From IMG/VR virus record IMGVR_UViG_3300049432_000203, positions 1 through 43,112 of that record: DNA of 43,112 bases, one strand, 5' to 3'. Shown here piece by piece: positions 6,124 through 35,643 of the stretch. Each line of letters begins with the position of its first letter. Within the stretch, counting starts at the first letter, position 1. This DNA is from a virus. Position numbers and translations under genes: made by a program. Below the pieces are notes generated by a model, which did not search any database, had not been told where the DNA came from, and worked only from the letters and a program-made list of their open reading frames with translations.

Positions 6124-7064
6124 CAGTCCTCTTTCTTGCCCTTCGGCTTCGCCAATTGCTCGATAGTTGCCGTCAAGCGATTAACGGTCTCTTCCAACTG
6201 TGCCACCCTGGTGTCTTCACCCTTGTTGGCCTCGCGCTCAAGGAAGATTGCGAGTGCGGTCTCAAGCTGCGGATTGATTGTAGGCGCAACGGGAGCAACA
6301 GGAGTCTGGTCTTTCGGCCTCACTGTCGGCACAGAGCGATTAAGGCTCTCAGCCAGCATCCGGTCTCTACCATCTGCCCTTGCTTTACCCTTACCGCCAC
6401 TCGCCTTCTGGTGAATCTCCTCGTCCGTTTCATCCAAAGTGATAGAAGCGAAGTCCTGCGCCTGCCCAGCGCCTTCCAGCAGTTGAGCGCGCACACTCTC
6501 TGCGAGATCGGCACACGACATTGATTGACCGTTTATCCTTGCAAGTTCACCTTGAGGCCACTCTGTCTCAGCAATGTTGATAGGACTAACAGCTTGGAGA
6601 TACTCGATCATCTCTGGGAGTGGGAGGGGTTTGGGAAGGACAGCGCGGAGGATGCCTGAGACCACTTTCGCGTCAAGCCCGGTGAGTGCATTGAAGATCG
6701 TGAACCCCCACGGGTTATTGTTGGAGTAAGCGTGGCGAATCTCCTCGGCACAGGCATACGCTGTCTTCTCGTGGACTTCTAACTGGGCATCACTTGGAGC
6801 ACCAAACCCCACACTCGGATTAGACGGCATTCCTCCAGTGTCGTCCCCTCGCAGAACCTTGTACTCACGATTGCGGAAGGGTGTCATCGCCATGCGCTTG
6901 ATGACCCGAACACCATCGGGCAGAACGATGCGGTCTGAGATGTTGATGTCGAATGCGGGACTCATGCCCCAACGTGTGGCGGATAGATTCCTGTACTCCT
7001 GAAGCTGCCTGCCCTCTCCAAACTCCTGAAAGTCCATGACCTCAGTTGTGCCTTCGTAACTCAC
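6123..7064 (-). CDS. Virion-region protein with C-terminal coiled coil
   Basis: This 313-aa protein starts with GTG at 7064, which has a strong AAAGGAG site. Residues 1-200 are mixed alpha/beta. Residues 215-250 are Lys/Gly/Ala rich and likely flexible. A Pro-rich linker near 255-265 leads to a C-terminal coiled coil (residues 270-305, VAQLEETVNRLTATIEQL) and a basic tail. I do not recognise it. The coiled coil suggests an oligomer; candidates are a head protein or an assembly factor. Confidence 0.55.
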   Translation of the reverse strand: MSYEGTTEVMDFQEFGEGRQLQEYRNLSATRWGMSPAFDINISDRIVLPDGVRVIKRMAMTPFRNREYKVLRGDDTGGMPSNPSVGFGAPSDAQLEVHEKTAYACAEEIRHAYSNNNPWGFTIFNALTGLDAKVVSGILRAVLPKPLPLPEMIEYLQAVSPINIAETEWPQGELARINGQSMSCADLAESVRAQLLEGAGQAQDFASITLDETDEEIHQKASGGKGKARADGRDRMLAESLNRSVPTVRPKDQTPVAPVAPTINPQLETALAIFLEREANKGEDTRVAQLEETVNRLTATIEQLAKPKGKKED

Positions 7065-7074
7065 AATTTCTCCT

Positions 7075-7644
7075 TTAGATTTCCCGGTAAACTTCCGGCG
7101 TAATGTAGTCAGTGGTCAGTGCACGACCCACTGGCGCGTTGTCTTCGTCAATCTGTTTCTGCAACTCTCTGTCGGTTTCCCTGTCTCTTTCGGCCTGTGT
7201 GTTGATGCACACCTGAAGATGCTCAATCGTATCTCGCCCCGGCGACCTGTAATTCCCCTGCAAGTCTTCAACCTCGTAGTAGAAGGTGTAACGACCTCGG
7301 GGGTGGGCTTCACGTTCCACCGGACTGAGCCTTGACGGGTCAGTGAATCTTTCAGCGATCCACCGAGGAGTACCGACCTCAACCACTTTCTCTCTGACTG
7401 CCCAGATACTGTTCACAAGTGTGGGCGCCATGACAGTCTTGGTCTTTCCGGGTATCCAGTATTTGAGTCCCCACGTGCCGTCAGACTTTCGCTCTCTCTC
7501 GTTGCCGCCCCACACGATCTTGACGTTGGGTTCATTAAACCTGTTAAGCCCGAAGGTCTTGGTCAGTTCTTCCTGCACCCAACTATCAAGGGGAGGAGGA
7601 ATGGAGTAGTCCTCTTGGGGACGATCTATCGTTTTCTCTCTCAT
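7075..7644 (-). CDS. Conserved-looking virion-region protein, unknown
   Basis: This 189-aa charged protein has a Trp/Tyr-rich N-terminal half (NVKIVWGGNERER, GLKYWIPGKTKTV, PRGRYTFYYEVEDL) and an Arg/Glu/Asp-rich helix near residues 145-170. It is the first gene after the major capsid protein, separated from it by a strong GC-rich hairpin. Position suggests a head or neck component. No motif allows a more exact call. The start at 7644 has only a weak upstream site. Confidence 0.55.
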   Translation of the reverse strand: MREKTIDRPQEDYSIPPPLDSWVQEELTKTFGLNRFNEPNVKIVWGGNERERKSDGTWGLKYWIPGKTKTVMAPTLVNSIWAVREKVVEVGTPRWIAERFTDPSRLSPVEREAHPRGRYTFYYEVEDLQGNYRSPGRDTIEHLQVCINTQAERDRETDRELQKQIDEDNAPVGRALTTDYITPEVYREI

Positions 7645-7659
7645 AAAGTCTTGAGGAGT

Positions 7660-7686
7660 GGGGGTGCGCAGGCCACCCCCCTTTTT
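7660..7686 (+). terminator. GC hairpin with T-tract facing the plus strand
   Basis: A perfect 7-bp stem GGGGGTG / CACCCCC with a 7-base loop is followed on the plus strand by C and five T. In the plus direction this is an intrinsic terminator, opposite to the genes on both sides. In the minus-strand transcript it is a stable hairpin between capsid and downstream genes without a U-tract, so there it could protect mRNA ends or lower downstream expression. Confidence 0.6.
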
Positions 7687-7712
7687 CAGCTAATGCATTC
7701 TCCTCGTCCTGA

Positions 7713-8954
7713 TTACAAGCCCGACGGAATCGCCAGTGCTTTGATAAGCGCCAGTGAGTTCGGTTGCGGACTTCCTATGTCGCCCTTAAAGCTGAAGTAG
7801 AACAACACGCTGTCGGCATGAATCCCAGTCCCGGGCTTCATGAACAACGTCTGTCCGCCACGATTCAACAGTCCCGGCTCCCTCACGACGAAGCGTTGCA
7901 GTCCGCCCGGAGTGATGAAGTAGATACGGTCACGGGGGCAGTCAACATCCGTCTTCCACGGGATGCCGTTGTGCGCGACGTTCGGGAACCCAAGGTCGAG
8001 CTTGTTGTTCCCCGAAGCATTGACGTTTCGCGTCAGTGAATAACCGAGTGAACGGTAAGCCTGTTGCTGTGCTGGATGACTGATCATGTACATCTGGCCG
8101 CCAACCTCACTGGACGAGGTGATCTCCATCTTGGTCAGCAGCACGTCAATGAGGGAGGTGGAGAGTGCGCCACTGGAGGCATCCGTCACCGTTGCCCTCA
8201 AGGAAGGATAGGTGGTGCGCCCGTTGGTCAGTCCCTGGTAGGTACCGGTAGCATCGTCAACGTGATAGGCGAGGCCGTGAATGTCCCGACCGTAACTACC
8301 TTCATAGGTCACGATGTCGCCCACCACGGCATCCGTGGGAACCGAGTCGAAGGTTACAACCCCGGTGGCGACGTTGACCGCCGTAACTGTGGAAACACTC
8401 GCACCCGTGACGTGTGCCACGCCTGCCGTGGTGTAGAAGTTCATGCGGGCGCCAACTAAGAATTGGCGTGCGCCACGAGCGTCACCGTTCATCGTTGCGG
8501 TACCGGCAGCACCTGTGGTGATTGCGGAGACGATGCCTTTGGCACCTGAACCATCCTGATAGCACTGTTGATTGATCTCTTTCTTGAAGCTCTGCGCCAT
8601 CCTCTTCGTGGTACCCGAAAGGAGGTTGCCGATGGTGTTGCTATCTTGCAGGTCGAGGACATCACCCGTGACGGCGCCTGTTTTCCACTTGCGACGAATA
8701 GGGACTCTCATCTCTACGTCGGTCGGTGCGCCTGGAAGAGGAAGGTAAGCACCCTCATCGAGAGAGGCGTTGGAGGCATCGGGGGCAACATACGCTGTAA
8801 TGCGTGCGCCGCCTGCGCGGGGATTGTTTTTCTGTGAGCGCCCGTCCATCAGAAGATCAAGGAGAACTGCTTTCTCCTGGAACATCTTTCTGGTTTCGGG
8901 CTGAACATACTCAATGAACCAACTGTTCAGAGTAGTGGTGGTAACTTCAGCCAT
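7713..8954 (-). CDS. Major capsid protein (HK97 fold)
   Basis: This 413-aa protein starts at ATG 8954 with a GGGAG site. Length, position after the scaffold-like gene and features of the HK97-fold N4-gp56-like capsid class support the call. These features are an N-terminal arm (residues 1-40), the segment RKWKTGAVTGDVLDLQDSNT and helix SFKKEINQQCYQDG, a Gly/Thr/Val-rich inserted beta domain (about 140-240), and the late motif GQMYMISHPAQQQAYRSLG with NVAHNGIPWKTDVDC. It would form the icosahedral shell. The Thr/Val-rich insertion may be exposed on the capsid surface. Confidence 0.85.
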   Translation of the reverse strand: MAEVTTTTLNSWFIEYVQPETRKMFQEKAVLLDLLMDGRSQKNNPRAGGARITAYVAPDASNASLDEGAYLPLPGAPTDVEMRVPIRRKWKTGAVTGDVLDLQDSNTIGNLLSGTTKRMAQSFKKEINQQCYQDGSGAKGIVSAITTGAAGTATMNGDARGARQFLVGARMNFYTTAGVAHVTGASVSTVTAVNVATGVVTFDSVPTDAVVGDIVTYEGSYGRDIHGLAYHVDDATGTYQGLTNGRTTYPSLRATVTDASSGALSTSLIDVLLTKMEITSSSEVGGQMYMISHPAQQQAYRSLGYSLTRNVNASGNNKLDLGFPNVAHNGIPWKTDVDCPRDRIYFITPGGLQRFVVREPGLLNRGGQTLFMKPGTGIHADSVLFYFSFKGDIGSPQPNSLALIKALAIPSGL

Positions 8955-8966
8955 TTTAGAATCTCC

Positions 8967-10094
8967 CTATTGGGAGACGCCCTGCCTTGCTAGAATGTCA
9001 TCGAACACCTGTGCTGCTCTTGATTCATCAAAAGCCGGGGTGGTGTCCTGTTTCACAGCAAAGGCAGCCGCACCCGAATTACCGGGCACAACTGTGGGTG
9101 TCTCGTTGTTTAAGTTCTGGGTCTGGAGATTCCTACTCTGGGCACGACGACCTGTGAATATCTGTATCTGTCTGGCAGCCTCGCGCTCAATCCTCGCTTG
9201 AAGTTTGAGCATGTGTTTTTTAGCCACAAGAGAGTTCTGGCTTCTGATTCCTGCCTCAGTCTCGTCCACGATTGACTTATTGTTGGGGTCTCGGTAGACC
9301 TTTTGATAGGCTCTCTCGTAGACGGCTTCAGCTATCTCCTGCTTGGCAGATATTTCTTCGGGTGTGTCGTTGGGTAGAACCTTCAGCCCCGCATCTTCAA
9401 ACAACTTACCGAGCGGACTCATGGCTTCCGTGATGATCTCCTGACCAAACTTCTCTACCTTTTCCGCCTGCTGTTGCTCGAGCATTTCACCGAACTTGTT
9501 GGCTTTGGATTCCACCTCTGGAAACTTACCCATCAGTTCGTCGTAAGCTTTGAGCTTGGCTTCGTCTTCAGGTGAGCGCCGGTACTCAGTCTCATCGTCG
9601 GTAAAGGGCTCACTTTCAGGTACTGCGGGCTTCTCTAAAGCCTGCTGCACCATCTCGAACGTCACACCTTTGCCGAACTTCTGTTCAAGCGTGGCGTCAA
9701 GTAGAACCTGGCCGAGTTGCTGGTAAGCGTCAGGATTGAGTGAGTGAATCTTCTGGGCGAGTCTCGCCGCATCGGGTGAACCGGAAACAAGGTCTTCCGT
9801 TATTTCACGGGTGGCATTGAAGACGGCCTCGCCGCCCATCTGCTCCACCTGCATGAAATACTTTCTACCCAGTTGTTTGTTGTACGGGATGCGAGTTTGT
9901 TCGTCACCGAATTCACTGCCTTCAATCCACTCCTGCTCATCAACGGACGCTGGCTCACTGGCTACCACCGTCTCAGTGCTTTGGTCAGTTGATTCGTTGG
10001 AGTTCACCACGGCCTCGTCGACCGTGATTTGAGCTGATTCGCTTGGGGCTGCTGGCTGCTCCGTGCCTACTCCCAGTTGTGATTCATCAGTCAT
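8967..10094 (-). CDS. Scaffold-like head assembly protein
   Basis: I choose ATG 10094 because a GAGAGG site precedes it, giving 375 aa. A reading from 10136 adds 14 residues without support. The protein is strongly acidic (Glu/Asp-rich residues 20-65 and 165-185) with long helices (residues 95-300) and a basic C-terminal half containing AKKHMLKLQARIEREAARQ. Acidic N-terminus, helical body, basic end, and its place between portal and capsid genes are typical of phage scaffolding proteins. No protease motif is visible. Confidence 0.75.
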   Translation of the reverse strand: MTDESQLGVGTEQPAAPSESAQITVDEAVVNSNESTDQSTETVVASEPASVDEQEWIEGSEFGDEQTRIPYNKQLGRKYFMQVEQMGGEAVFNATREITEDLVSGSPDAARLAQKIHSLNPDAYQQLGQVLLDATLEQKFGKGVTFEMVQQALEKPAVPESEPFTDDETEYRRSPEDEAKLKAYDELMGKFPEVESKANKFGEMLEQQQAEKVEKFGQEIITEAMSPLGKLFEDAGLKVLPNDTPEEISAKQEIAEAVYERAYQKVYRDPNNKSIVDETEAGIRSQNSLVAKKHMLKLQARIEREAARQIQIFTGRRAQSRNLQTQNLNNETPTVVPGNSGAAAFAVKQDTTPAFDESRAAQVFDDILARQGVSQ

Positions 10095-15999: not shown

Positions 16000-16436
16000 A
16001 GTTCTTCCTCCCTGATGTTCCACTGAGTTACTAACTTATCTAGTTCAGCTTGAGCTTTCCGCTCCTGCTCCTCCTGATACGATGCACCGAACGCTGGAAG
16101 GTTCTTTTGCTGCTCTTTCCAGTGCTCGACCCTTTGCTTTACTTCTCGAGCAGCACGGACATGGAAGGTACGTTGCTGTGCTTCACTTGCCCGTGATGAG
16201 TCGAATCTTGACCTCTCTGCTATTTCCTGCGCCTTCTCACGCTTTCGCCTTTCCTGCATCTCATGCAAGTCCTTGTCGCCGATGGTAATGGCATAATAAA
16301 GTGCAGCCCGCCGAGGGTTGATCTCCATCAGCCTGTCCACGTCAAGATTGTGCGCGGCCTCATTGAACTCCGCGCCCAGCGCGTCAAGCTCTTTCCTCAG
16401 CTCCTCCAGCTTTTGATGCAGTTCCGTTATCTCCAC
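15996..16436 (-). CDS. Coiled-coil protein, unknown
   Basis: This 146-aa protein is nearly all helix with heptad-like patterns (residues 1-25 LHQKLEELRKELDALGAEF, and 55-140), rich in Glu, Gln, Arg and Lys. The start is GTG 16436, with AAAGGATAA before it and sharing a base with the upstream TAG. No enzymatic motif is seen. Given its place between the long virion protein and the terminase genes, it may be an assembly or internal head protein. Confidence 0.6.
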   Translation of the reverse strand: MEITELHQKLEELRKELDALGAEFNEAAHNLDVDRLMEINPRRAALYYAITIGDKDLHEMQERRKREKAQEIAERSRFDSSRASEAQQRTFHVRAAREVKQRVEHWKEQQKNLPAFGASYQEEQERKAQAELDKLVTQWNIREEEL

Positions 16437-19400
16437 TATTTATCCTTTCGGGGTGCGCCCCTCTTCTCTTCTCGCTTGTAAGTATTAACTCCGACACCGA
16501 CGAATCCCGGTGCCGTCTTGGCGACACCTGTCAGACCTTCTTCCTGAAATGCCTTATACAAGTCATTAAGGTACAAGGGGGTGACTAACTCTATCGCTTC
16601 TTTGCCCATTGAGGTTTTCTCGCCCACGGCATTCTTACCCTGTGCGACGTTTAAGACACTGGCGGGAATAGGCGCCAGCTTGTATCTCAGGAACCGCTTG
16701 AGATTATCTTCCGCAGTTTTACCGAACCCATCGTCTTTACCTTGAGTCCAGTTCTGCGCGTTCTTAAACAGCCTTGCGGCCAGAGTCACATACTGTCCCT
16801 GCCCAAACGCCAGATCGTATCTGGTGTTCCCCATCCGCAACTTCATAAACTCGGACTCTTCCGGGTCAGTCGTGACTTGTTGATTGAATCCGTGCTTGAG
16901 AAGCAGACCAACTGTAGCAATGGTGCCGAAGTATTGAACAGCCTGCCTCATTGCCGTCCTCCTTGCTCCCTGTGGCAATCTTGCATACACCCTCGGGTCA
17001 AAGATTTGAACCTTACTTGCTGCATACTTTGGAGCGAAGAACAGGGCGTTGAGGATTGGTGAAGCGTTATTCAGTGCACCCTTGCCTAAGTTCCCTCTCC
17101 CCGTTCCGATGTTCACGAAGTTGGCGATTGTCTTGTAGTCCTCAGTTGAGAGCTTCTTTCCACCCTTTAGTGCCGCATCATCAGCCTGCGCCTTTAACTG
17201 CTTGAACCATGACACCCTCGCCGTGTCAATGAAGGTCGTGTAAGCCCTCTCGGACTGTTTGACTCCCGGCAACTTGCCCGCAATCTTCGACATGAATGCT
17301 TCTTCGCGGGCACTCAAGGCTCCACTCTTCGGTGTAGTAGTGAGTTCAAGCCCTGCCCTCTGCATCACGGGGTAATCAGGGTCGCTCATCAGTTCATCAA
17401 CATACTTATCGAAGTTCTTCTCCCGCATTGCTTTTAGTTGCTTGCCGAAGAATAGCTTTGTTCCCTGACCGGGATGAGTCACTGCCCACATTGCGCCTTG
17501 ACGTAAAGCAGATAGGTCAACAGAGGATTTCAGGGTCTTGGGAATATTGAGCACATCGCCCGCAACACGTTTTACTTTCTGGCCGCGGGTGAGAGTCAAG
17601 TCCTCAAACCTTCTGGCTAACTCAGCACTCGCCGTCCTCGCATCCTTCCTAGCCTGAACTCTCTGCTCAACTAGCTTCTCAACTTCAACGTCGGGCAAAT
17701 CTTTGCCTTTAGTCACGCCCCGGCGTTCACTAGCCTTTCTTAACTCCTTACGCGTCGCGTCATATTGCCGATAGCTTTCACGATAAATAGCCTGCAACTT
17801 CGGCTTAATCTCGTCCCCGAACTCTCCCACCATGTCCTGTGACCACTTGGCGAAAGTTACGCCTTTCTGGGCTAACTTACTCGCACCAATAATGGCGTAG
17901 TCAGCAATGTCCAGTGGGATTGTTGAAGCGCCAACTTGTCCACCTTTACCCACACCGATGCGTGCAGCCAATCTAGCCCGTGCATCACTCTCAGCCTTAG
18001 CAAGTCGCTCCTGTAGGGTCTCCAGCTTCGGACGGGGTGCGCGAGTCGTTGCCCTCATGCTGAGTTCAGCAATCTGCTTCTCTAACGTGGAAACCTTCGC
18101 TTCTGCTTCACGGACTTTAGTCGCAGTCTCGGTCAACACCTTAGCCTGATCGGGGGCTAGTGTTTGACCCGACTTCATCTGCCTCTGTGCAGTGAGTAAT
18201 ATTCCCTCGGGGGATAGGCGGGAAATGATACTTGCTGCCTGTACAGCCTGCCCTGCCTCAGTGAGCTTCCTTGAAAGATGGTCTGCAACTTCAGCGGCCC
18301 GCTTGATGTCGGTTTTCTGGAGTGTCCTGAGAAGCTCCACTCCTGTAGCAGTATCTTCTGCCGTCAACTCCCTCTTGATAATCAAATCTGAAATGGAACG
18401 GTCAACACCCTTCTCTTTAATTGCAGCCTGAGCCTTCTCTAGCGTCTCCCTGTTCGTTAGAACGTCATAGGTAGTATCTGAGCCTTTGGGGAGTCCTGCT
18501 GCTTCCAGATTCTTTGGTGTGGCACGTTGCCCCATTCTGATAGGGACCACAGGCGCGTCAGGCGCTTTCTCCCTCACTGGAATTGCACGTTGATTACCCG
18601 CACCCGTTCCGGTTGGTTTCTGTATCACGTGCTCCACACTTTGAGCGTCAACTACCTTGACCTTTCCCTGCGGAACTCCAGCCTGATTAGGCGCTTCAAC
18701 AACCTCACCAAAATCCCTGTGCTGAAACTTCTTCTTTCCTACTGGTAGCAGTGCGCCCTCGACAAACGATTCCACCGGGTTCTTATCACTACCGGACACT
18801 TTGTCTGTAATAACATTTGTCGCCCCGCCCATTCCTCTTGCTGTCAGTTGGCGCGTAACTGCTCCGGCGCTGTTGAGGGCGGCGCCCGCACCACGAGACA
18901 CGCCCGAGGGAACGCCCATCGTCATCCCTGCTTTAACCGCCTCACTTTTCCCCTTCTGTAAGTTCTCGGCCATTGCTACTACTGGAGCGGCAGGATTCAT
19001 GTAGCGAGGTGCCGACCCTATTGCGCCCGTGATGCCCCGAACAATTCTCCCTGTGGCCGTCTTCTCCTGTGGGATGGCAGCAGAAGCGTTTTCAATAATT
19101 TGAGCATCCCTTGCAGAGTCTTTCGGGTCGCGCACAAAGCCCTGTACATTGTTGAGAAGGCTCGCCCCTCCGATAGCAGCGTCACCCAATCCTTTAGCAA
19201 TCGGACCATTGCCTTCCGACATCCCGAATTTTTGCGCCACCTCCTGAGCAACAGCACGGCCTTGAGCGACCTTTTCGTCTGAAGACTTAACTTCCCCACG
19301 CATTGCCGCTATCTCAGCCTGTGCTGCCCCTACTCCACCCTTTGAGTAAGCATTGATAATGCGTATGTCCGCAGACGTGGGCTGAACCTCAAAGCTGTAA

Positions 19401-20302
19401 GACTTGGATTCCGGGTCATATCCGCGCTTCAACTCTTCAAGACCAATCTCAGGTGTGACGAGGTTGCGCCCTGTCTCCGCTCGATACCGTCTGCCGACTT
19501 CGCCGGCACCCATTGCATCAAGCAAGGCGTCCGCCATCTCATTAGCGTTCGGGTATGAGTGATTACCAGCCGTCTTGACTGTAGCCTTGACGAGCTTGCC
19601 ACCACGCAGCGGCGATGACTCAGGCACTTCCTGCATATTGGCTCCGGCGATACGTGCACCACCGGCGGCCACCCGAGCAGCGAAGGGGAGGTCGGACGCC
19701 TCAAAGGGTTTGAACTCTATCGGAGGAACTGCACCCTCTAACGGCATATCGAATGCCGCATCGTCTTCACGGACAGTTGACGTTACTCGGGGTTCTATCG
19801 GAGGAACCGAACTCTTGGTACTTATCAACTCATCTAGGACCGCATCAATGTCGTCGGCAGGGGCGGGTGCTTCACCGAGCGTCGTGCCTATCGCGTACCT
19901 TTGCTTGGTTGAGCTACTTGGAAGTCCCACATGAATGTGCGGGCCCGTTGATGCAACTTTCCCTGTCTTACTACGTGCCGGACCACCGAAGGCATTAAAC
20001 GGAATGTTGTTCTGGCGAAGATAGTTTAATAACTCCTGACCTTCGGGCGTTGTGGGATTAAGTGCCACGTCAGCAGCGTTGCGGTGATCCCACCCCTGTG
20101 AGTTATGAATATTCCCCTGTCCCTGATTTCTAACGGGCAAATCCCTGCCCGTCTTCGTACGGTAGAAGTCTTTAATCTTGTTGATGTCAGCGACAGACCA
20201 CGAACTATTAGCGGGCACGAACTTTTCACGGCCCACAGGCCGAGCGGGCTTTCGCTTGGCAGTCACAAGTGAATTAAGAATGTCGTCTATTTCGTCTGGC
20301 AT
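16436..20302 (-). CDS. Giant virion protein with N-terminal zinc-peptidase-like domain
   Basis: This 1288-aa protein is the largest in the window. Residues 35-128 look like a small peptidoglycan-peptidase domain: GWDHRNAADVAL (His73, Asp78) and GPHIHVG (His122, His124) match the His/Asp and His-x-His pattern of LAS/M15-like zinc peptidases. The His-to-Asp spacing is 5 rather than the usual 7, so catalysis is uncertain. The rest is helical, with coiled coil near 730-800, and the C-terminal 250 residues resemble large polyvalent phage proteins (FVNIGTGRGNLGKGALNNAS, ELVTPLYLNDLYKAFQEEG). It is likely ejected with DNA to open the cell wall and form a channel. Confidence 0.65.
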   Translation of the reverse strand: MPDEIDDILNSLVTAKRKPARPVGREKFVPANSSWSVADINKIKDFYRTKTGRDLPVRNQGQGNIHNSQGWDHRNAADVALNPTTPEGQELLNYLRQNNIPFNAFGGPARSKTGKVASTGPHIHVGLPSSSTKQRYAIGTTLGEAPAPADDIDAVLDELISTKSSVPPIEPRVTSTVREDDAAFDMPLEGAVPPIEFKPFEASDLPFAARVAAGGARIAGANMQEVPESSPLRGGKLVKATVKTAGNHSYPNANEMADALLDAMGAGEVGRRYRAETGRNLVTPEIGLEELKRGYDPESKSYSFEVQPTSADIRIINAYSKGGVGAAQAEIAAMRGEVKSSDEKVAQGRAVAQEVAQKFGMSEGNGPIAKGLGDAAIGGASLLNNVQGFVRDPKDSARDAQIIENASAAIPQEKTATGRIVRGITGAIGSAPRYMNPAAPVVAMAENLQKGKSEAVKAGMTMGVPSGVSRGAGAALNSAGAVTRQLTARGMGGATNVITDKVSGSDKNPVESFVEGALLPVGKKKFQHRDFGEVVEAPNQAGVPQGKVKVVDAQSVEHVIQKPTGTGAGNQRAIPVREKAPDAPVVPIRMGQRATPKNLEAAGLPKGSDTTYDVLTNRETLEKAQAAIKEKGVDRSISDLIIKRELTAEDTATGVELLRTLQKTDIKRAAEVADHLSRKLTEAGQAVQAASIISRLSPEGILLTAQRQMKSGQTLAPDQAKVLTETATKVREAEAKVSTLEKQIAELSMRATTRAPRPKLETLQERLAKAESDARARLAARIGVGKGGQVGASTIPLDIADYAIIGASKLAQKGVTFAKWSQDMVGEFGDEIKPKLQAIYRESYRQYDATRKELRKASERRGVTKGKDLPDVEVEKLVEQRVQARKDARTASAELARRFEDLTLTRGQKVKRVAGDVLNIPKTLKSSVDLSALRQGAMWAVTHPGQGTKLFFGKQLKAMREKNFDKYVDELMSDPDYPVMQRAGLELTTTPKSGALSAREEAFMSKIAGKLPGVKQSERAYTTFIDTARVSWFKQLKAQADDAALKGGKKLSTEDYKTIANFVNIGTGRGNLGKGALNNASPILNALFFAPKYAASKVQIFDPRVYARLPQGARRTAMRQAVQYFGTIATVGLLLKHGFNQQVTTDPEESEFMKLRMGNTRYDLAFGQGQYVTLAARLFKNAQNWTQGKDDGFGKTAEDNLKRFLRYKLAPIPASVLNVAQGKNAVGEKTSMGKEAIELVTPLYLNDLYKAFQEEGLTGVAKTAPGFVGVGVNTYKREEKRGAPRKDK

Positions 20303-20344: not shown

Positions 20345-20725
20345 ATGTGGACTTGCTCCAAATGCAACCAAGCAATTCAAGATGATTACAGTATCTGCTG
20401 GAATTGCGGACTAAGAAATTTACAGCGTCCTAGAAGCAAAGAAGATATAGCCAAAGGGACTCCCACATTTGGCTCCTTTGATGAATTAGCGCCCACTCCT
20501 CCGAAACCCAAACAAAGCCTACGTGAATATGTTGGGGGCACTGTTTTTGACAGCATAGTTGCCGTCATATTCGCCGCAATCATTATTCCGCTCCTCCGAA
20601 CTTTCGTTTATCCATACGAACCTTATGTCTCAATCAGTTTAGTTATCGCAGTCGCCGCATTTATCATATGGCGCGTTTTCAAGCGTGACCCCCTTGACGG
20701 AAGAGGTATAGACTTATCGAAGTAA
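20345..20725 (+). CDS. Zinc-ribbon membrane protein (moron)
   Basis: This 126-aa protein has a zinc ribbon at its N-terminus (Cys4, Cys7, Cys18, Cys21), a polar linker rich in Pro and Lys, and two membrane helices (about residues 66-84 and 92-110). It ends in a basic tail. It is encoded against the surrounding late operon, in locally AT-rich DNA, and ends two bases before the stop of the convergent 407-aa gene. That pattern fits an independently expressed cargo gene of host origin. Zinc-ribbon plus two-helix proteins are common in bacterial chromosomes and have varied or unknown roles. Confidence 0.7.
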   Translation: MWTCSKCNQAIQDDYSICWNCGLRNLQRPRSKEDIAKGTPTFGSFDELAPTPPKPKQSLREYVGGTVFDSIVAVIFAAIIIPLLRTFVYPYEPYVSISLVIAVAAFIIWRVFKRDPLDGRGIDLSK

Positions 20726-22117: not shown

Positions 22118-22305
22118 CTTTTCTCCTTTAACTGTTCACCCTCTAGAAACTCCACTCTTTCCCACTCATGTCCCCTACCATTCTCTTGTATCCCAAATAT
22201 TTCCCCAACCCTTTCATCCACATACTCATCACTTGCTACTCTGTGAACCAAAATACTTGGACGATCTGTGATGGTCGTGATGGTAATTTGGTGGATGTCG
22301 GTCAT
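22114..22305 (-). CDS. 63-aa hypothetical protein
   Basis: This small protein has a beta-rich first half (HQITITTITDRPSILVHRVA) and a charged Glu/Arg-rich second half. Both ends overlap the neighbours as ATGA, so it is in the same coupled operon. There is no membrane segment and no recognisable motif. It probably folds as a small beta-sheet protein. Confidence 0.6.
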   Translation of the reverse strand: MTDIHQITITTITDRPSILVHRVASDEYVDERVGEIFGIQENGRGHEWERVEFLEGEQLKEKR

Positions 22306-22670
22306 TTCGGATAATTGGCCTCACCCGCAACCTGTCTCAATATCCGTTCCTCTTCCGCACTGAACCATCCCCTCTGGATTGCCCTATTAAGCAGTTCTTT
22401 CTGGACTATTCCGCGATTGCCATAAAACTTGTGGTCTGCTTCCAACGAGGCTTCCAGCACATCCAACCTTTTAATCACCTCATCCTGTTTGTGCCTCACG
22501 TCCTGCTGCTCACGGATAATCGCGCTATCAAGTGAAGCGCCGCGCTTTTCAATCTGAGACTGTGACCACAGGCTATAAGCCAGAAGTGCTACGAGGACAC
22601 CACCAAGCACTATCGGCACAATTAGAATGAGCCTCAACATCGAATCTGAGATATAACGATTATCTCTCAT
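22302..22670 (-). CDS. Membrane-anchored coiled-coil protein, i-spanin-like
   Basis: This 122-aa protein has one N-terminal membrane helix (about residues 12-34, LRLILIVPIVLGGVLVALLA) followed by a long coiled coil (40-85) and a short polar end. That is the plan of inner-membrane spanins, which help fuse the two membranes at lysis, and the endolysin is 1.6 kb upstream in the same operon. No outer-membrane lipoprotein partner lies next to it. The nearest small lipoprotein is at 26.1-26.3 kb. The spanin call is inference from layout and place. Confidence 0.5.
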   Translation of the reverse strand: MRDNRYISDSMLRLILIVPIVLGGVLVALLAYSLWSQSQIEKRGASLDSAIIREQQDVRHKQDEVIKRLDVLEASLEADHKFYGNRGIVQKELLNRAIQRGWFSAEEERILRQVAGEANYPK

Positions 22671-23083
22671 GCCAGTGCCGCCTTTATCCGCACCATTACA
22701 TCATCGAGTAATCTCACTGCATCCGTGTCCTTCAAATAACAATCGTTTCTAGTAATCCTGTTTCCTTTCAAGTCCTGCATCTGCTCATACAGTCCCTCGT
22801 GGCCGGTATAGATAAGTATGTCGGCAATGCTTTGCAGGACTCCGCTATGCTCCAAACAGTGGATAGCTTTGATAAGTGACACACCATCCACATACGGCAT
22901 GGCAACGTCAACGACCATCAAATCAAAGGCAGTGGTCTTGATTGAGCGGATGATTTCTATCAGCCCATCAGCACCATCACGCGCTGTGACGACCTCACAC
23001 CCTGCCGATTCCCACGCTGTCCTGAGCATGTCGGAAGCGTCGGCAAAATCATCTACAATTAATACTCGAAAGGTCTTCTTCAT
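22667..23083 (-). CDS. Stand-alone response-regulator receiver protein (CheY-like)
   Basis: This 138-aa protein is a single receiver domain with all key residues: acidic pair Asp11-Asp12 (VLIVDD), phospho-acceptor Asp59 (MVVDVAMP), Thr93 (LIYTGH) and Lys118 (YLKD). There is no output domain. I start at ATG 23083, which overlaps the upstream TGA as ATGA; a longer reading to 23188 lies in the upstream gene. Receiver domains accept a phosphate from a histidine kinase and change partner binding; none is encoded here, so a host kinase is implied. Such a gene in a phage lysis region is unusual. Confidence 0.9.
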   Translation of the reverse strand: MKKTFRVLIVDDFADASDMLRTAWESAGCEVVTARDGADGLIEIIRSIKTTAFDLMVVDVAMPYVDGVSLIKAIHCLEHSGVLQSIADILIYTGHEGLYEQMQDLKGNRITRNDCYLKDTDAVRLLDDVMVRIKAALA

Positions 23084-23460
23084 CCTCGACTCGTCAACCT
23101 CTCGTCGGGCGGTAGTTCCCCATAGGTGCGGGTGTAGCGGTCTAGCTGTGCCAGCGTGCGGCTGTGTTCCTGAAAATGCAGCTCCCATCGTGCCTCTTTC
23201 TGCTCCAACTCGCGCTCGACTTTCACCTTCTCCGCTTCCGCATCAACAAGTCGGACGCCTCGTCTCTCGGCAATCTGCTTCCACGAATCCTCTTTCTTGA
23301 TTCTCAGTGCCGCCCAGACCATGACAACGAGGCCAACGAAAAACAGGAGCGCGCCTAAAATAGCGGCAACCGTCACCACGTCCGTTGACTCCAGTGAGGC
23401 TAAAATAATCATCCATATCCCCATCCATTTGATTGCGAGTCCCAATTTACTCGCCGCCAA
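23080..23460 (-). CDS. Two-helix membrane protein with coiled coil
   Basis: The TTG start at 23460 gives 126 aa; an internal ATG at 23424 would remove 12 residues and has no better site. Two membrane helices (about residues 12-24 and 29-52) are followed by a charged coiled coil (60-100). The gene directly precedes and is coupled to the receiver gene, so the two products may act together, for example as membrane anchor and switch. A lysis role such as holin partner or spanin is equally possible. Confidence 0.6.
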   Translation of the reverse strand: MAASKLGLAIKWMGIWMIILASLESTDVVTVAAILGALLFFVGLVVMVWAALRIKKEDSWKQIAERRGVRLVDAEAEKVKVERELEQKEARWELHFQEHSRTLAQLDRYTRTYGELPPDERLTSRG

Positions 23461-23465
23461 CCTAG

Positions 23466-23621
23466 CTATTGAAACTCTTCGTCGTCACCATAGTTCGCCT
23501 GGATAGCCCGGTAGAGCTTCAGGACAGCCGCCTTATACTTCGCCTTGTTCTTCGCACCCTTCAGCCCCTTGAGGAACGTGAAGAGTGTTGAGAAGCCCAT
23601 TGAGATTAAAAAGTCGTTCAT
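23466..23621 (-). CDS. 51-aa basic amphipathic protein
   Basis: A short gene with an AAGGAGAAAA site reads MNDFLISMGFSTLFTFLKGL, then a Lys/Ala-rich amphipathic helix (KGAKNKAKYKAAVLKLYRA), and ends in an acidic DDEEFQ. It sits six bases before the next gene and eleven after the holin-like gene. The hydrophobic start and cationic helix suggest a membrane-active peptide within the lysis region; that is inference. Confidence 0.65.
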   Translation of the reverse strand: MNDFLISMGFSTLFTFLKGLKGAKNKAKYKAAVLKLYRAIQANYGDDEEFQ

Positions 23622-23632
23622 CGTTTTTCTCC

Positions 23633-23860
23633 TTAGTCGTTTTTGGTAGTAGTGATATTCGTATCGCCTGTCTTCGGGCTGGCATCAATGGTCGCGCCCG
23701 TCTTCAGGAGTGCGGCGAAAGCACCTGCGAAGAGTAGCGCGACGTTCTTCAGGAACTCGTCAGGGTGTCCCATCCAGACCGTGACCATGTAGGCTGCGAT
23801 TGCTGCCATTGACGCGAAGAGGGCAAGATACTTGTCCTGCATCTGTGGATTGATTGCCAT
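23633..23860 (-). CDS. Holin-like two-helix membrane protein
   Basis: This 75-aa protein has two hydrophobic helices (about residues 12-30 LALFASMAAIAAYMVTVW and 36-53 LKNVALLFAGAFAALL) and a polar, Thr/Asp/Lys-rich C-terminal tail. An AAAGGA site precedes the ATG at 23860. Size, two helices with both ends likely cytoplasmic, and closeness to the endolysin match class II holins, which form the pore that lets endolysin reach the wall. No family-specific motif is needed or seen. Confidence 0.65.
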   Translation of the reverse strand: MAINPQMQDKYLALFASMAAIAAYMVTVWMGHPDEFLKNVALLFAGAFAALLKTGATIDASPKTGDTNITTTKND

Positions 23861-23863
23861 CAG

Positions 23864-23989
23864 TTATCCTTTCGAGAACACTCCCAACAAATACAAGATG
23901 AAGATGGCTGCCAGCACAATGATGACAGTAGAGAAGATTATCGCTACCTTTCGTGCATCATCTTCGGCCAAGCGTTCGTTGAATTTCAT
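23864..23989 (-). CDS. 41-aa single-span membrane protein
   Basis: I start at ATG 23989, giving a charged N-terminus (KFNERLAEDDARK), one membrane helix (about residues 15-36) and a short GVFSKG end. A reading to 24127 would run through the previous gene. Small one-helix proteins beside a holin are often antiholins or auxiliary lysis proteins. The upstream site is weak. Confidence 0.55.
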   Translation of the reverse strand: MKFNERLAEDDARKVAIIFSTVIIVLAAIFILYLLGVFSKG

Positions 23990-23993
23990 ATCT

Positions 23994-24257
23994 TCAGCAC
24001 CGATATTTGTTGCCCTGAGCGTCCGTGCCGCCAATTTGGAGCTTTCCGTCGTGGACTGCTTGTGCCACTTGAGCATCGGCCTTCTGAGCATTCTCAAGAT
24101 CAATCTCGTGGAGAAAGACCAGCGCAAGGTGATTCTGAATCACATCAACTTGCAGCGGGTTTAGAGCATGTCGCACTGGACGCGCCGGGTCTGTTGATTG
24201 CGCGCCGTTGATTTCCAGATAGCCTTGCAGCCAATACGCAAAATCTCGTGATGTCAT
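23994..24257 (-). CDS. Conserved small phage protein of lysis region
   Basis: The start at ATG 24257 follows AAAGGGTAGAT and gives 87 aa. The beginning MTSRDFAYWLQGYLEINGAQ and the middle QVDVIQNHLALVFLHEID match a pattern I associate with small proteins of many tailed phages, found near lysis or tail genes. It is soluble and mostly helical. No function is established that I know of. Confidence 0.65.
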   Translation of the reverse strand: MTSRDFAYWLQGYLEINGAQSTDPARPVRHALNPLQVDVIQNHLALVFLHEIDLENAQKADAQVAQAVHDGKLQIGGTDAQGNKYRC

Positions 24258-24259
24258 AT

Positions 24260-25069
24260 CTACCCTTTCAAAAGTGCTGTCCATGTGGCAGCGTCAATGA
24301 TGCCCGTTTGCGGCAATCCCACGCGCTTTTGAAACGTCCGCACCGATGAACGTGTGTTCTCCCCAAAATACCCGTCGGCAGCAAGCACGGCCCCGTGATG
24401 CTTCAATCGTCTCTGAGCCGTCAAAACATTCTCACCGCGCGTCATGGGACTTGAGATTTTAAGTGTGGGAAGGAGAGCGGTGTTGTCTTCCTCTGTGGTT
24501 GGCGCGTATAAGTCAGCCATCAATGCCGTGTAGCCTTTGTCTGCCAACTTTTTATATTGAAAATGCCAGAATTCGCGCTTCGTCCAGTTGCCCTTTTTCT
24601 CCCAGCCAATGTGTGCGCGTATCCGTTCCCAGCCGTGCCGTTCAGCCAATGCCGTGAAGTCCAATGCCCAGCCCGTATACTGTCCTGCGTTCTCTGTGCG
24701 GACGTTTATCTTTGAAACAAACTCGGAAGGCTTTTGAAGAGATACGTCTTTAATCCTGATGTACGTTCGCCACCATACGCGGTCTTGTGGCGCGGTTTCA
24801 CGGACTAAGACGAGGTTAGGTTCGCCCTGATTATAATCGTAAGCTACGCCACATTTGTGAAGGGATGTAGTAACTGAGCCGGGAGAGTTCTTAACGAATG
24901 ACTTGGAGCGGAAGCAATCGCCTAATATTTTCAAAAAGTCCACGCCGCTAAGTCTGAGGGTGTCCGCGCGCAGGGCATCGTAAGAGTCCGCCGCTTCCAA
25001 GCGCAGATATGGATAGTTGCCTGTTACGACGTTCTGAATCACCCTCAGTTTTCTACTTGGCATACTCAT
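24260..25069 (-). CDS. Endolysin: M15-type zinc peptidase with peptidoglycan-binding domain
   Basis: ATG 25069 shares a base with the upstream stop (TGATG) and has GGAG before it, giving 269 aa. The catalytic domain shows the M15 zinc pattern: Ser69-x-His71 with His71-x6-Asp78 (SLHKCGVAYD), and Glu166-x-x-His169 (EFWHFQY). These would cut peptide links in peptidoglycan. The C-terminal 65 residues are a classic PG_binding_1 fold (LTAQRRLKHHG, DGYFGENTRSSVRTFQKRVG, IDAATWTALL). There is no signal peptide, so release depends on a holin. Confidence 0.88.
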   Translation of the reverse strand: MSMPSRKLRVIQNVVTGNYPYLRLEAADSYDALRADTLRLSGVDFLKILGDCFRSKSFVKNSPGSVTTSLHKCGVAYDYNQGEPNLVLVRETAPQDRVWWRTYIRIKDVSLQKPSEFVSKINVRTENAGQYTGWALDFTALAERHGWERIRAHIGWEKKGNWTKREFWHFQYKKLADKGYTALMADLYAPTTEEDNTALLPTLKISSPMTRGENVLTAQRRLKHHGAVLAADGYFGENTRSSVRTFQKRVGLPQTGIIDAATWTALLKG

Positions 25070-25281
25070 CAATGAAGTTCTCCACTTGTCCCACTGAACC
25101 AAAAAGCGTCCAACGAATCTCCACACGTTATTCGGTAAGGCTCAAACGTCGGATAGCTCGGCTGATACGGCTGAACGCACACAGGCGGGTAATAGTGATA
25201 ATGGTTTTCGCGTGGCTGCGTTTCTAATTCCTTAACGCGCTTTTCCAAGTCGGCAATTTTCTTCTCAAGTTCTTTACTCAT
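25069..25281 (-). CDS. 70-aa coiled-coil protein with Tyr/Pro-rich tail
   Basis: Residues 1-22 are a Lys/Glu coiled coil (ELEKKIADLEKRVKELE). The rest is rich in Tyr, Pro and His (NHYHYYPP, PYQPSYPTFEPY) and probably unfolded. ATG and upstream TAA share a base, and the stop shares a base with the endolysin start, so it is coupled to the endolysin. Role unknown; a helper or small virion protein is possible. Confidence 0.6.
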   Translation of the reverse strand: MSKELEKKIADLEKRVKELETQPRENHYHYYPPVCVQPYQPSYPTFEPYRITCGDSLDAFWFSGTSGELH

Positions 25282-25621: not shown

Positions 25622-26113
25622 CTATGCCACATCTTTCTCAAGATTGGCTACTACTGACCTCAGAGCGCGGGCAGCATCCTTGCGAATCTGCGCCTCTGAC
25701 TTGGCGAGTATTGTAACACCGTTTGTCTCTTTTTCTACAGCAATCTTGATATAGCGAAGTGCTGCGCGCGACGTTACCATTGCAGGAGTAACTTGAATGA
25801 CCACGAATCCCAAACTCACGGCTTCATTCAACTTCTCAATGTCGCGCACAACGCCGCTTGTCGAGCGGTGTCCCGTAGCCTGTGCCTGATAAAGTCCACC
25901 TTGATATTCAATCAGCACCCGCTCACCAATCTTCCAATCAGCGCGATACTTCCGCTCAGGGTGAAACTTAAATTCAGGCACAGGGTCCGGCAAGCCAGCT
26001 TCTTTAATCTGGCGCAACAATTCTGCTTTATAGTCAGTTACAGCAGAGAGTCGCCCACGCAGTTGCAGACCGCTCTTAACGAACTCTGATGATTTCATGC
26101 GTTCCTGTGGCAT
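25622..26113 (-). CDS. PD-(D/E)XK-type nuclease
   Basis: The ATG at 26113 follows GGGAG, giving 163 aa; a GTG two codons before and an ATG at 26098 are alternatives. The core YRADW, then RVLIEYQGG (Asp59, Glu69, Gln71), and the following HRST plus DIEKLNEAVSLGFVVIQVTP match a phage nuclease family with the restriction-endonuclease fold (typically arginine-rich strand, Asp, Glu-x-Gly, Gly-Arg-His). It may resolve branched DNA or act in recombination. Gln in place of Lys in the last motif position is a variation to note. Confidence 0.7.
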   Translation of the reverse strand: MPQERMKSSEFVKSGLQLRGRLSAVTDYKAELLRQIKEAGLPDPVPEFKFHPERKYRADWKIGERVLIEYQGGLYQAQATGHRSTSGVVRDIEKLNEAVSLGFVVIQVTPAMVTSRAALRYIKIAVEKETNGVTILAKSEAQIRKDAARALRSVVANLEKDVA

Positions 26114-26336
26114 TTTCACTCCCGCACTTGTGAATTGGATTCTTGCAATCGCCTTTGTGGGTCAAAGAATAGACACGCATCTGTCCAAAGCCCGCGTCGT
26201 ATTCAATGTATTCACAACTATCTACCACTTTGACGTTGTATCCCCTGCCCGTATCAGTCGTAGCACCCTGCGGTGGTTCGGGATTACAGCCAACGAAAAA
26301 GACTAAAACCGCAATCAATAAAATCTTTATTCTCAT
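26076..26336 (-). CDS. Small phage lipoprotein
   Basis: The ATG at 26336 follows a GAGGAA site (86 aa). A hydrophobic signal (residues 3-16) ends in a lipobox-like FVGC (Cys17), so the mature part starts with a lipid-linked Cys. The mature part has three more Cys and the pattern DSCEYIEYD and YSLTHKGDCKNPIHKC, which I recognise as a recurrent small phage protein of unknown function. It overlaps the nuclease gene by 38 bases. Membrane location makes a surface or exclusion role possible. Confidence 0.7.
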   Translation of the reverse strand: MRIKILLIAVLVFFVGCNPEPPQGATTDTGRGYNVKVVDSCEYIEYDAGFGQMRVYSLTHKGDCKNPIHKCGSENATGTHEIIRVR

Positions 26337-26381
26337 CAATCATTCCTCTCCGTCTGCTTGGCGTTTGTTACACATCAGTAG

Positions 26382-26860: not shown

Positions 26861-26985
26861 TTGTTCTCCGCTTCCTGTTCCTTTAGATCGAACCAGCAAT
26901 GACAACTTTCACACGCCACAAGTTCACAATGTTCACCCTTCCATTTAGGGTGGAGAATGCCGTTACAGTTTGGGCAATTATTCAT
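26857..26985 (-). CDS. 42-aa zinc-ribbon protein
   Basis: This short gene begins MNNCPNCNGILHPKWKG and has CESCHC further on, giving CxxC ... CxxC, a single zinc ribbon with a short tail. The ATG overlaps the metallophosphoesterase stop as ATGA, and its TGA overlaps the next start as GTGA. Tight coupling on both sides supports translation. Role unknown; binding nucleic acid or protein is usual for such ribbons. Confidence 0.7.
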   Translation of the reverse strand: MNNCPNCNGILHPKWKGEHCELVACESCHCWFDLKEQEAENK

Positions 26986-28109
26986 GCTGCCACCAACTCA
27001 TCTTTCTCTCGCTGATAGAACCTTCCGCCAATCATGCACCCTTCAAACGTCGTATCGAGGTACTCCATCTGAGTTCGCTTCCGCTTGGTGTCCACATGAG
27101 CCAGCAGAAATCCATTCGACCACCGTTCCGCAGCCGTGTAGATCGCGCTCCTGATGTGTCCGCACCCCGTCTGATGCCATTCGTATGAGCCGAACGCGGG
27201 ACTGTAGTTGCTCCAAACCAGATGCTTATGTTCGTGGCCGTTCGTGCCGGGATAGCCCATCAATCTTCCGTGTGGAAAATGGTGGCAGAGCAGCGCATCC
27301 CAAAAGATCATGTAATTCTTATTCAACTCTTTTTTGATGTCCGACTCGTTGAAGGCCGAGAGGTCAGCACGAGCAACGTAATTCACTTCGTACTTAGTGA
27401 GTCCGAGAAGATCAGGGATGGACATGCCGTGCAGGTCGGATAGAACAGTAACGAGTGCTGGGGTTGCCTCGGTCAAGTGCCTCAGTAGTCGGAACTCATG
27501 GTTGCCTTCACAAAGTGTGACTTCCGAATTTGGCGCGGCGTGTCTGAGGTCGTCAAGGAAAGCGTGTACCCACTTGATTCTACCCACTACATCAAATTGT
27601 CTCGGGTCTTGGGTGTATTTACTGAACTCCGTCATATCGAAGATGTCGCCGTTCAGGACTATCTTTTCAGGCTGTACCCTCCGGGCTGTGTCAACAAAGA
27701 GTCTGCGATAGAACGGATCACAAAGTTTGTCGTGGATGTCTGAACCTACAAGTGCGGTCTGCCACCGCTTATTCGATGGTCTTAAATATTTATCCTCCCA
27801 ACCACTTTTCTCCTCATTCATCTTTCGCTGAACATCCTTGCTGGCGTGTTTGGCAATGGCCTTCTCAAGTGTGTGAGCGTGGCGAGAGAGGATGATGTTG
27901 GCTTGCCGCTTAAACTCAAGAAAAGTTCCGAAATTTGCATTCCAGACTGACTCTGCAAATCGTGAATGGACTCTAAAGAAGTTGCGTGTAACAACCCTGT
28001 CAGGGTTAGCTTCTGCGATGCGACGAAGCTCTGCGATACACTCTTCGAGTGAAAGCGGCGTGGTTATCTTCCTTGTGTCCTGCGAGAGAGGAACTTCTTT
28101 TTTACGCAT
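26982..28109 (-). CDS. Calcineurin-like metallophosphoesterase
   Basis: This 375-aa protein has the full metal-binding set: Asp124-x-His126 (GSDIHD), Gly-Asp155 (NGDIFD), Gly-Asn203-His204-Glu (GNHEFR), His near 277 (LCHHFPHG) and Gly-His292-x-His294 (NGHEHKH). It would hydrolyse phosphodiester or phosphomonoester bonds with two metal ions, on DNA, RNA or nucleotides. Residues 20-75 form a separate helical module (EANPDRVVTRNFFRVHSRF) that looks like a DNA-binding repeat found with homing-endonuclease-type proteins. AAGGAA precedes the ATG. It is likely a phage nuclease or phosphatase of the early operon. Confidence 0.85.
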   Translation of the reverse strand: MRKKEVPLSQDTRKITTPLSLEECIAELRRIAEANPDRVVTRNFFRVHSRFAESVWNANFGTFLEFKRQANIILSRHAHTLEKAIAKHASKDVQRKMNEEKSGWEDKYLRPSNKRWQTALVGSDIHDKLCDPFYRRLFVDTARRVQPEKIVLNGDIFDMTEFSKYTQDPRQFDVVGRIKWVHAFLDDLRHAAPNSEVTLCEGNHEFRLLRHLTEATPALVTVLSDLHGMSIPDLLGLTKYEVNYVARADLSAFNESDIKKELNKNYMIFWDALLCHHFPHGRLMGYPGTNGHEHKHLVWSNYSPAFGSYEWHQTGCGHIRSAIYTAAERWSNGFLLAHVDTKRKRTQMEYLDTTFEGCMIGGRFYQREKDELVAA

Positions 28110-34908: not shown

Positions 34909-34928
34909 GAAAATAATCTTGCGAGGAC

Positions 34929-34936
34929 TTCTAGAA
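34929..34936 (+). promoter_or_regulatory. Third operator half-pair TTCTAGAA at the RHH start codon
   Basis: TTCTAGAA lies immediately before the ATG at 34937, between it and the GAGGA ribosome site. It repeats the core of OL and OR. A bound protein would block transcription or translation start of the RHH gene, suggesting autoregulation. A weak plus-strand promoter (TTCTAG, 17 bases, TAATCT) overlaps OL just upstream. Confidence 0.5.
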
Positions 34937-35212
34937 ATGACTAATATGTTTGCCGTGCCTGTAAAAGAAGGAAAAGTTCAATTAAATCTGTGGGTTTCTG
35001 AAGACATGGACAAGGCTCTCAAGCGTCTTGCACAGCAGCGGAATCTGCGCGGACGTACTCAAATGGCTGAAATAATTCTCAATCAATATCTGGACGACGC
35101 GGCAACTGAGGACTTCAGCGCACCGCTCTTTAAGGTCAAGGCGGGGGAATCACACCCAAGCATCCAGCTTAAAGGCGCGGCGAAGCCATCAAAGAGGGGC
35201 GGTAAGAAGTGA
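34937..35212 (+). CDS. RHH repressor-type DNA-binding protein
   Basis: This 91-aa protein has a ribbon-helix-helix domain at residues 13-52: strand KVQLNLWVSE, helix DMDKALKRLAQQRNL, turn RGR, helix TQMAEIILNQYLDDA. A flexible basic tail (KPSKRGGKK) may add DNA contacts. It is the first gene between the twin promoters and overlaps the UmuD-like gene as GTGA. RHH proteins such as P22 Arc bind TAGA half-sites, and the operators here are built from TCTAGA. It is the best candidate for the lysogeny repressor. Confidence 0.75.
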   Translation: MTNMFAVPVKEGKVQLNLWVSEDMDKALKRLAQQRNLRGRTQMAEIILNQYLDDAATEDFSAPLFKVKAGESHPSIQLKGAAKPSKRGGKK

Positions 35213-35643
35213 ACGCTACAATCCGGCAATTCTACAGTCCTGACGAAGTACCCAAGTCAGACTTACCTCTGTTCTCCGTCCAGCTTCCCGCCGGATACCC
35301 CACACGCATTGATTGTGACAATCCGAGCCGCCTCAACATCGTAGAATTTCTCATCAGGCATCCTGACGACACCGTGTTTGGAACTGTCTCAGGTGATTCG
35401 ATGGAAGGTGAAGATATTTACGATGGCGACTTGCTGGTGATTGATCGTGCGCTCGAGCCGGTGGAGGGATGCGTGATTGTCGCTTTCATCAACGGAGATT
35501 TTACGGTCAAGAAATTCTCACACAGAGACGGAAAGATGTTCCTTGTATCCGGTAACAGACGATACCCGCCTCAAGAGATTAAAGAACACAATGATTTTGA
35601 AGTGTGGGGTGTGGTTTCTCACGTCATTCATAAACGAATCTAA
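35209..35643 (+). CDS. UmuD-like S24 self-cleaving peptidase
   Basis: This 144-aa protein has the UmuD/LexA pattern. The cleavage site Ala28-Gly29 (LPAGYPTR), nucleophile Ser64 in SGDSM and base Lys101 in FTVKKF are spaced 36 and 37 residues apart, exactly as Cys24, Ser60 and Lys97 in UmuD. RecA filaments would trigger self-cleavage after DNA damage. No UmuC follows and it starts with GTG inside the stop of the RHH gene, so it is more likely a switch component than a polymerase subunit. Confidence 0.88.
   Translation: MNATIRQFYSPDEVPKSDLPLFSVQLPAGYPTRIDCDNPSRLNIVEFLIRHPDDTVFGTVSGDSMEGEDIYDGDLLVIDRALEPVEGCVIVAFINGDFTVKKFSHRDGKMFLVSGNRRYPPQEIKEHNDFEVWGVVSHVIHKRI

Follow-up and report, generated by a model that had tools for sequence, protein, structure and literature searches.

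A stand-alone receiver domain in a phage lysis cassette and its possible part in the timing of lysis

The lysis cassette of the phage in the window (the whole stretch of DNA analysed, 43,112 nucleotides) encodes a stand-alone receiver domain, and the gene of this receiver overlaps the gene of a small membrane protein. The arrangement recurs in at least six further phages that are unrelated or only distantly related, which suggests that host signalling kinases may set the time of lysis in some phages. Lysis timing is usually viewed as a clock set by the accumulation of holin, and few inputs to this clock are known (T4 lysis inhibition, membrane potential). If the proposal is true, the cassette receiver would link host two-component signalling directly to the lysis clock. 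Individual receivers are already annotated in these genomes as 'response regulator' or 'CheY-like protein'. It is the lysis-cassette setting that appears to be new, and we found no description of a receiver as a lysis-cassette component in the open-access literature. The arrangement is also present in cultured Alteromonas phages, which makes the proposal directly testable.

The lysis cassette and its receiver

Genes for a terminase, a head protein and an integrase are present in the window, a virus record of 43 kb. Therefore, the phage is probably temperate. On the minus strand, the genes of the cassette follow in the order endolysin, open reading frames of 96, 41, 75 and 51 aa, the 126-aa membrane protein, the receiver and a 122-aa Rz-like protein:

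24260-25126, minus strand: endolysin with the M15-like motif SLHKCGVAYD and a C-terminal PG_binding_1 domain (63 bits; PHROG endolysin, E 2.5e-14)
23994-24284, minus strand: 96-aa phage protein (phrog_35763, E 1.6e-6)
23864-23989, minus strand: 41-aa protein with a single transmembrane (TM) helix, possible holin or antiholin (open reading frame from the ATG at 23989; hydropathy)
23633-23860, minus strand: 75-aa protein with two TM helices, holin candidate (hydropathy; no family match in Pfam or PHROG)
23466-23621, minus strand: 51-aa open reading frame with an amphipathic start (no family found in Pfam or PHROG)
23080-23460, minus strand: 126-aa membrane partner of the receiver, TTG start uncertain (hydropathy; ATGA junction)
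22667-23083, minus strand: 138-aa stand-alone receiver domain with an ATG start (Pfam, residues, AlphaFold2 model, PDB matches)
22302-22670, minus strand: 122-aa protein with an N-terminal TM helix (14-32) and a coiled coil, Rz-like i-spanin candidate (weak match to PHROG 89, E 0.024)

The product of 22667-23083 matches Response_reg (PF00072) with 46.1 bits (E 6.5e-12) at a cut-off of 30.2 bits, which excludes a chance match. A complete CheY-like receiver had been predicted here from the DNA, and residues, Pfam and fold agree with this: D11, D12, D59, T93 and K118 were verified letter by letter. The Pfam match reaches only to residue 97, short of K118. Therefore, T93 and K118 were checked via an alignment and an AlphaFold2 model. 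In the 15-row receiver alignment, D12, D54, D59, G67 and K118 are invariant. An additional residue ahead of b4 shifts T93 by one column in some alignments; the assignment of T93 is backed by a local T-G-H-[DE] match with the receiver of phage record L039. A single-sequence AlphaFold2 run was poor (pLDDT 49), and the model based on the 15-row alignment was used instead. It has the canonical b1a1b2a2b3a3b4a4b5a5 fold (pLDDT 87.8, pTM 0.83), as one would expect of the predicted receiver. In this model D59 closes strand b3, and T93 and K118 follow b4 and b5, respectively. Residues 90-120 are modelled more weakly (block pLDDT 73-77). All structural matches in the PDB are receivers, the best with Z 17.6 and an rmsd of about 2 A over 119 aligned residues. 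A deviation is K118-D119, where Lys-Pro is usual. No output domain is present in the 138 aa, and helix 5 ends at residue 137 of the model. By score, fold, catalytic residues and absence of an output domain, the protein is a single-domain response regulator, and its phosphorylation is predicted.

The receiver is placed in a lysis cassette by the endolysin of the same operon, which was recognised by both PG_binding_1 and PHROG; its M15 pattern SxHxxGxAxD was read directly from the sequence. ATGA overlaps are found at both ends of the receiver gene, where its start overlaps the stop of 23080-23460 and its stop overlaps the start of 22302-22670. Thus, the predicted coupling of the receiver to a two-helix membrane protein is real as regards the overlap, and hydropathy gives the partner a weak hydrophobic helix at 6-24 and a strong one at 28-46, followed by a charged, coiled-coil-like tail that is predicted to be cytoplasmic. 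Our searches found no homologue of this partner, and no two-component H-box was seen in it by eye. The original prediction also had the receiver flanked by holin-like and spanin-like genes. From topology, 23633-23860 is a holin candidate, and from topology together with the weak PHROG match at E 0.024, 22302-22670 is a spanin candidate. Promoter and terminator scans gave a signal no better than that of shuffled sequences. A kinase of the HATPase_c type is encoded neither in the window phage nor in the record of L022, a phage with a similar cassette that is described below. A phage-encoded kinase partner for the window receiver was ruled out on this ground.

Upstream of the endolysin lies a small lipoprotein-like open reading frame with the lipobox VGC (26076-26339, minus strand). 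It is the only nearby o-spanin candidate.

Recurrence of the arrangement in other phages

A search for the pair of receiver and membrane protein elsewhere, as the original prediction had advised, was positive. Stand-alone receivers with the catalytic residues are located directly after a small TM or coiled-coil gene in the lysis cassettes of the IMG/VR phage L022 and of five Alteromonas phages, namely PT11-V22 (a myovirus), PT15-A5 (Schitoviridae), R9Y1, XX1924 and PB15. L022 was found by a scan with the receiver alignment, PT11-V22 by a fold search of viral models, and PT15-A5 and R9Y1 by a search with the PT11-V22 receiver. The records of XX1924, PB15, R7M and ZP6 were taken by accession.

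L022 shares no protein similarity with the window beyond the receiver (20 kb compared). Its receiver (Response_reg, 74 bits) has its own C-terminal TM helix and stands in the order 161-aa holin-like protein, receiver, lipoprotein, 64-aa TM protein and CHAP endolysin, with genes that abut or overlap. The PT11-V22 cassette has, in the same order as the window, a coiled-coil protein, the receiver and an Rz-like spanin (PHROG 4297, E 7e-6), and then a two-TM protein. Its receiver, ORF30 (L055 25749-26198), is a lone 149-aa receiver, and the annotation as a hybrid histidine kinase is wrong. PT15-A5 has a coiled-coil protein, a CheY-like protein, an Rz-like protein (E 3e-8), a two-TM protein and an annotated endolysin. 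In R9Y1, a protein with TM helix and coiled coil is followed by the receiver and a GH108 lysozyme. The XX1924 cassette consists of an XhlA-like protein (PHROG 937, E 1e-12), the receiver, a DUF5675 protein and a 3TM holin (GTA_holin_3TM, E 1e-14; PHROG holin, E 2e-39); that of PB15 consists of an XhlA-like protein, the receiver, a carboxypeptidase and a 3TM holin 94% identical to the XX1924 one. In both, the receiver start overlaps the stop of the XhlA-like gene by ATGA. The start of the PB15 receiver (L061 30533-30910) is misannotated 7 codons too far downstream, and the overlap appears with the true start. Such coupling of receiver and partner is present in the window, XX1924, PB15 and R9Y1. 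The Alteromonas phages R7M and ZP6 have no receiver in the parts examined (about 50/56 kb and 37/38 kb).

None of the seven lysis-cassette receivers, at 20-35% identity, has lost the acidic pair, the acceptor Asp, the Ser/Thr or the Lys. These residues were read from the alignments; the automatic S/T column was off by one in several rows, and the Lys column of L022 was misplaced. No homology links the membrane partners of the different families, with no match between those of the window and L022 or in the whole set; in the other phages, the coupled partner is XhlA-like or holin-associated. Between XX1924 and PB15, the receivers are 62.9% identical, with dN 0.32 and dS saturated. On these sequence estimates, the receiver of this pair is under purifying selection. 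Its neighbours are more conserved than the receiver (dN/dS 0.05 for the XhlA-like gene and 0.02 for the holin).

With the index case excluded, six of the eight stand-alone receivers in the phage records examined lie in a lysis cassette (L022 and the five Alteromonas phages; the other two are in L024 and L039). If a cassette makes up 5% of a genome, the chance of this is about 4e-7, a figure that serves as a guide only, given a small sample partly picked by similarity. When the Alteromonas phages are counted as one lineage, the count becomes 2/4 and the chance about 0.014, for the same small and similarity-biased sample. In a weak receiver tree, the lysis-cassette receivers do not form one clade, and the branches of the window and XX1924 sequences are long. 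The receivers may still have a single origin.

DUF5675 proteins (L055 27828-28235; L059 37745-38143) were seen in or beside two of the receiver-bearing lysis cassettes and may be lysis enzymes. Most other 'phage' receiver matches (fecal MT83xxxx, Listeria OR84xxxx) were rejected as full-length cellular response regulators or likely host flanks. The match in Komp_PAO1_1 was dropped because its strand is opposite to that of the annotated gene.

Relatives of the window phage and origin of the gene

Response_reg is absent anywhere in the records of ten TerL relatives of the window phage (50-66% identity; several of these records are fragments). Therefore, the receiver is not required for lysis as such. 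The nearest of them, L002, has no lysis cassette of the window kind upstream of TerL. Judging from these sequences, either the receiver is accessory in the window lineage, or the TerL relatives are too distant to tell. Conservation, which the original prediction had proposed to check, thus gave a divided result: the pair of receiver and membrane protein recurs in other phages, but it is absent from the distant TerL relatives of the window phage. Scans of genome contigs for TerL and the phosphoesterase gave no match.

Had the gene been a recent host gene fragment, the original prediction would have lost its basis. The gene is not such a fragment: the databases hold no near receiver, codon use is phage-like, and overlaps join the gene to those on either side. 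Its codon-position GC (0.55/0.36/0.54) is in line with the rest of the phage. In the collections searched, no cellular receiver is close to that of the window, and the databases searched contain no close relative of the receiver, the membrane partner, the endolysin, the MCP or the 1288-aa protein.

Several other genes of the window phage were noted. The metallophosphoesterase at 26982-28109 (minus strand) is 66% identical to that of Bordetella phage PHB04, far above the other searched proteins of this phage, and is probably a recent transfer. An S24 (LexA/UmuD-like) peptidase gene (35209-35643, plus strand) overlaps a ribbon-helix-helix gene (34919-35212, plus strand) near the switch of transcription direction. 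On the opposite strand between two minus-strand late genes, a 126-aa open reading frame (20345-20725, plus strand) begins like a zinc ribbon (CxxC...CxxC) and has hydrophobic segments. The large virion-type protein at 16436-20302 (minus strand) has in its N-terminal 150 aa the M15-peptidase-like motif GWDHRNAADVAL...GPHIHVG, and the corresponding motif of its L002 homologue (3668-9496) is SLHYSGNAVDIKG...GPHVHLEY. Going by this motif, the protein is perhaps an entry peptidoglycan hydrolase.

A possible role in lysis timing

We propose that the receiver is a host-phosphorylated cytoplasmic switch that acts on its coupled membrane partner and sets the timing of lysis, a function to which we give an even chance. 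Acetyl phosphate, a phosphorelay or a histidine kinase of the host would supply the receiver with phosphate late in infection. The alpha4-beta5-alpha5 face of the receiver would be altered by phosphorylation, and with it the way in which the receiver binds the cytoplasmic portion of its membrane partner. The altered binding could speed or delay hole formation, either direction being possible, and lysis time would then track host physiology. The receiver would work through contact with a protein at the membrane, much where the T4 antiholin RIII acts, but switching like CheY, DivK or EpsW. Sequence and model support the chemistry of the switch and its genetic coupling; the phosphate donor, the contact with the partner and the direction of the effect are what we infer. 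A broader proposal is that several unrelated phage lineages independently placed a phosphorylatable receiver in the lysis cassette, coupled to a coiled-coil partner in the membrane, and that host kinases set lysis timing post-translationally, via a phosphorelay, once the late proteins have been made. We put it forward tentatively, as somewhat short of an even chance. Several points stand against a role in lysis timing: the TerL relatives, R7M and ZP6 do without a receiver, the partners are non-homologous, Asp takes the place of Pro after K118, the receivers are not united in a single clade of the weak tree, the holin and spanin labels of the window come from topology, and cassettes beside tail-fibre genes also gather accessory genes. 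The variant in which the receiver would control late gene expression, also raised in the original prediction, is unsupported because the receiver has no output or DNA-binding domain.

Some of these points would suit an accessory 'moron' at an insertion-prone junction of tail-fibre and lysis genes, that is, a host-derived receiver altering motility, envelope or superinfection exclusion. Such cargo would be present in some relatives and missing in others and would not form one clade, and the cassette does come after tail-fibre genes in PT11-V22, PT15-A5, R9Y1 and XX1924. However, the same partner type is immediately upstream in every case, four of the phages have the ATGA coupling, and the receiver is sandwiched by lysis genes, an order that cargo would not need. 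We consider this explanation rather unlikely. A functionless gene, decaying or recently captured from a host, is hardly credible. The window phage's distant relatives lack a homologue, as would be expected, but the reading frame is intact with two ATGA overlaps and a full catalytic set, the codon positions resemble the rest of the phage, no close cellular receiver turned up in the collections searched, and the XX1924/PB15 counterpart is under purifying selection.

It is also conceivable that the receiver is a phosphate sink or decoy, which drains host kinases so that the cognate regulator (of envelope stress or the response to phage) stays inactive late in infection. The intact catalytic set, the absence of an output domain and the lack of a phage-encoded kinase agree with a sink. 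Nevertheless, a position in the lysis cassette implies late and modest expression, and the coupling to a membrane protein and the TM anchor of the L022 receiver would be left unexplained; we regard a sink as improbable. The receiver fold might serve independently of phosphorylation as a mere cytoplasmic binding domain, as an antiholin or a spanin assembly factor. This is quite improbable: K118-D119 in place of K-P and the high divergence (long branch) of the window receiver speak for such a scaffold, but DD, D, S/T and K are retained in 7/7 lysis-cassette receivers in spite of their low identity.

The proposed switch can be compared with known systems. CheY, DivK, Spo0F and EpsW share with the window receiver the fold, the catalytic residues, the lack of an output domain and, presumably, action by protein contact; EpsW, for example, is a single-domain receiver whose phosphorylated form is reported to act on the membrane enzyme EpsZ (PMC12802240). 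Unlike them, the window receiver is phage-encoded, lies in a lysis cassette, is coupled to a TM/coiled-coil gene, has no cognate phage kinase and has K-D for K-P. T4 RIII is a cytoplasmic antiholin (PMC8385771), and the window receiver resembles it as a small phage protein of the cytoplasm whose expected target is the cytoplasmic portion of a membrane protein of lysis. In contrast, RIII is not a receiver and has no phosphate switch, and it is inhibitory, whereas the window receiver might act in either direction. XhlA-type proteins combine a coiled coil with a TM helix, as the partner genes do, and the XX1924 and PB15 partners are XhlA-like (PHROG 937), whereas that of the window starts with two helices and shows no detectable homology to XhlA. 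Phages also draw on two-component signalling where host CtrA controls the expression of their genes, a control put forward as 'lytic deferment' (PMC9437464), and in the response regulator and histidine kinase pairs of Stenotrophomonas phage Bhz63 and Mycobacterium prophage prophiGD05-1. These systems act via DNA-binding response regulators, whereas the window receiver has no DNA-binding domain. Among the window cassette proteins scanned (Pfam, PHROG), there is no gene for an NAD/ADP-ribose enzyme. Such enzymes are linked to cREC of jumbo phages (PMC7824862), which is also a phage-encoded receiver-like fold but a divergent one, whereas the window receiver is canonical and lies in a lysis cassette.

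Two stand-alone receivers were seen outside lysis cassettes. That of L039 (6001-6812) is beside a P-loop kinase-like gene, and in L024, a jumbo phage of 436 kb, the receiver (5077-6378) follows a macro-domain-like gene.
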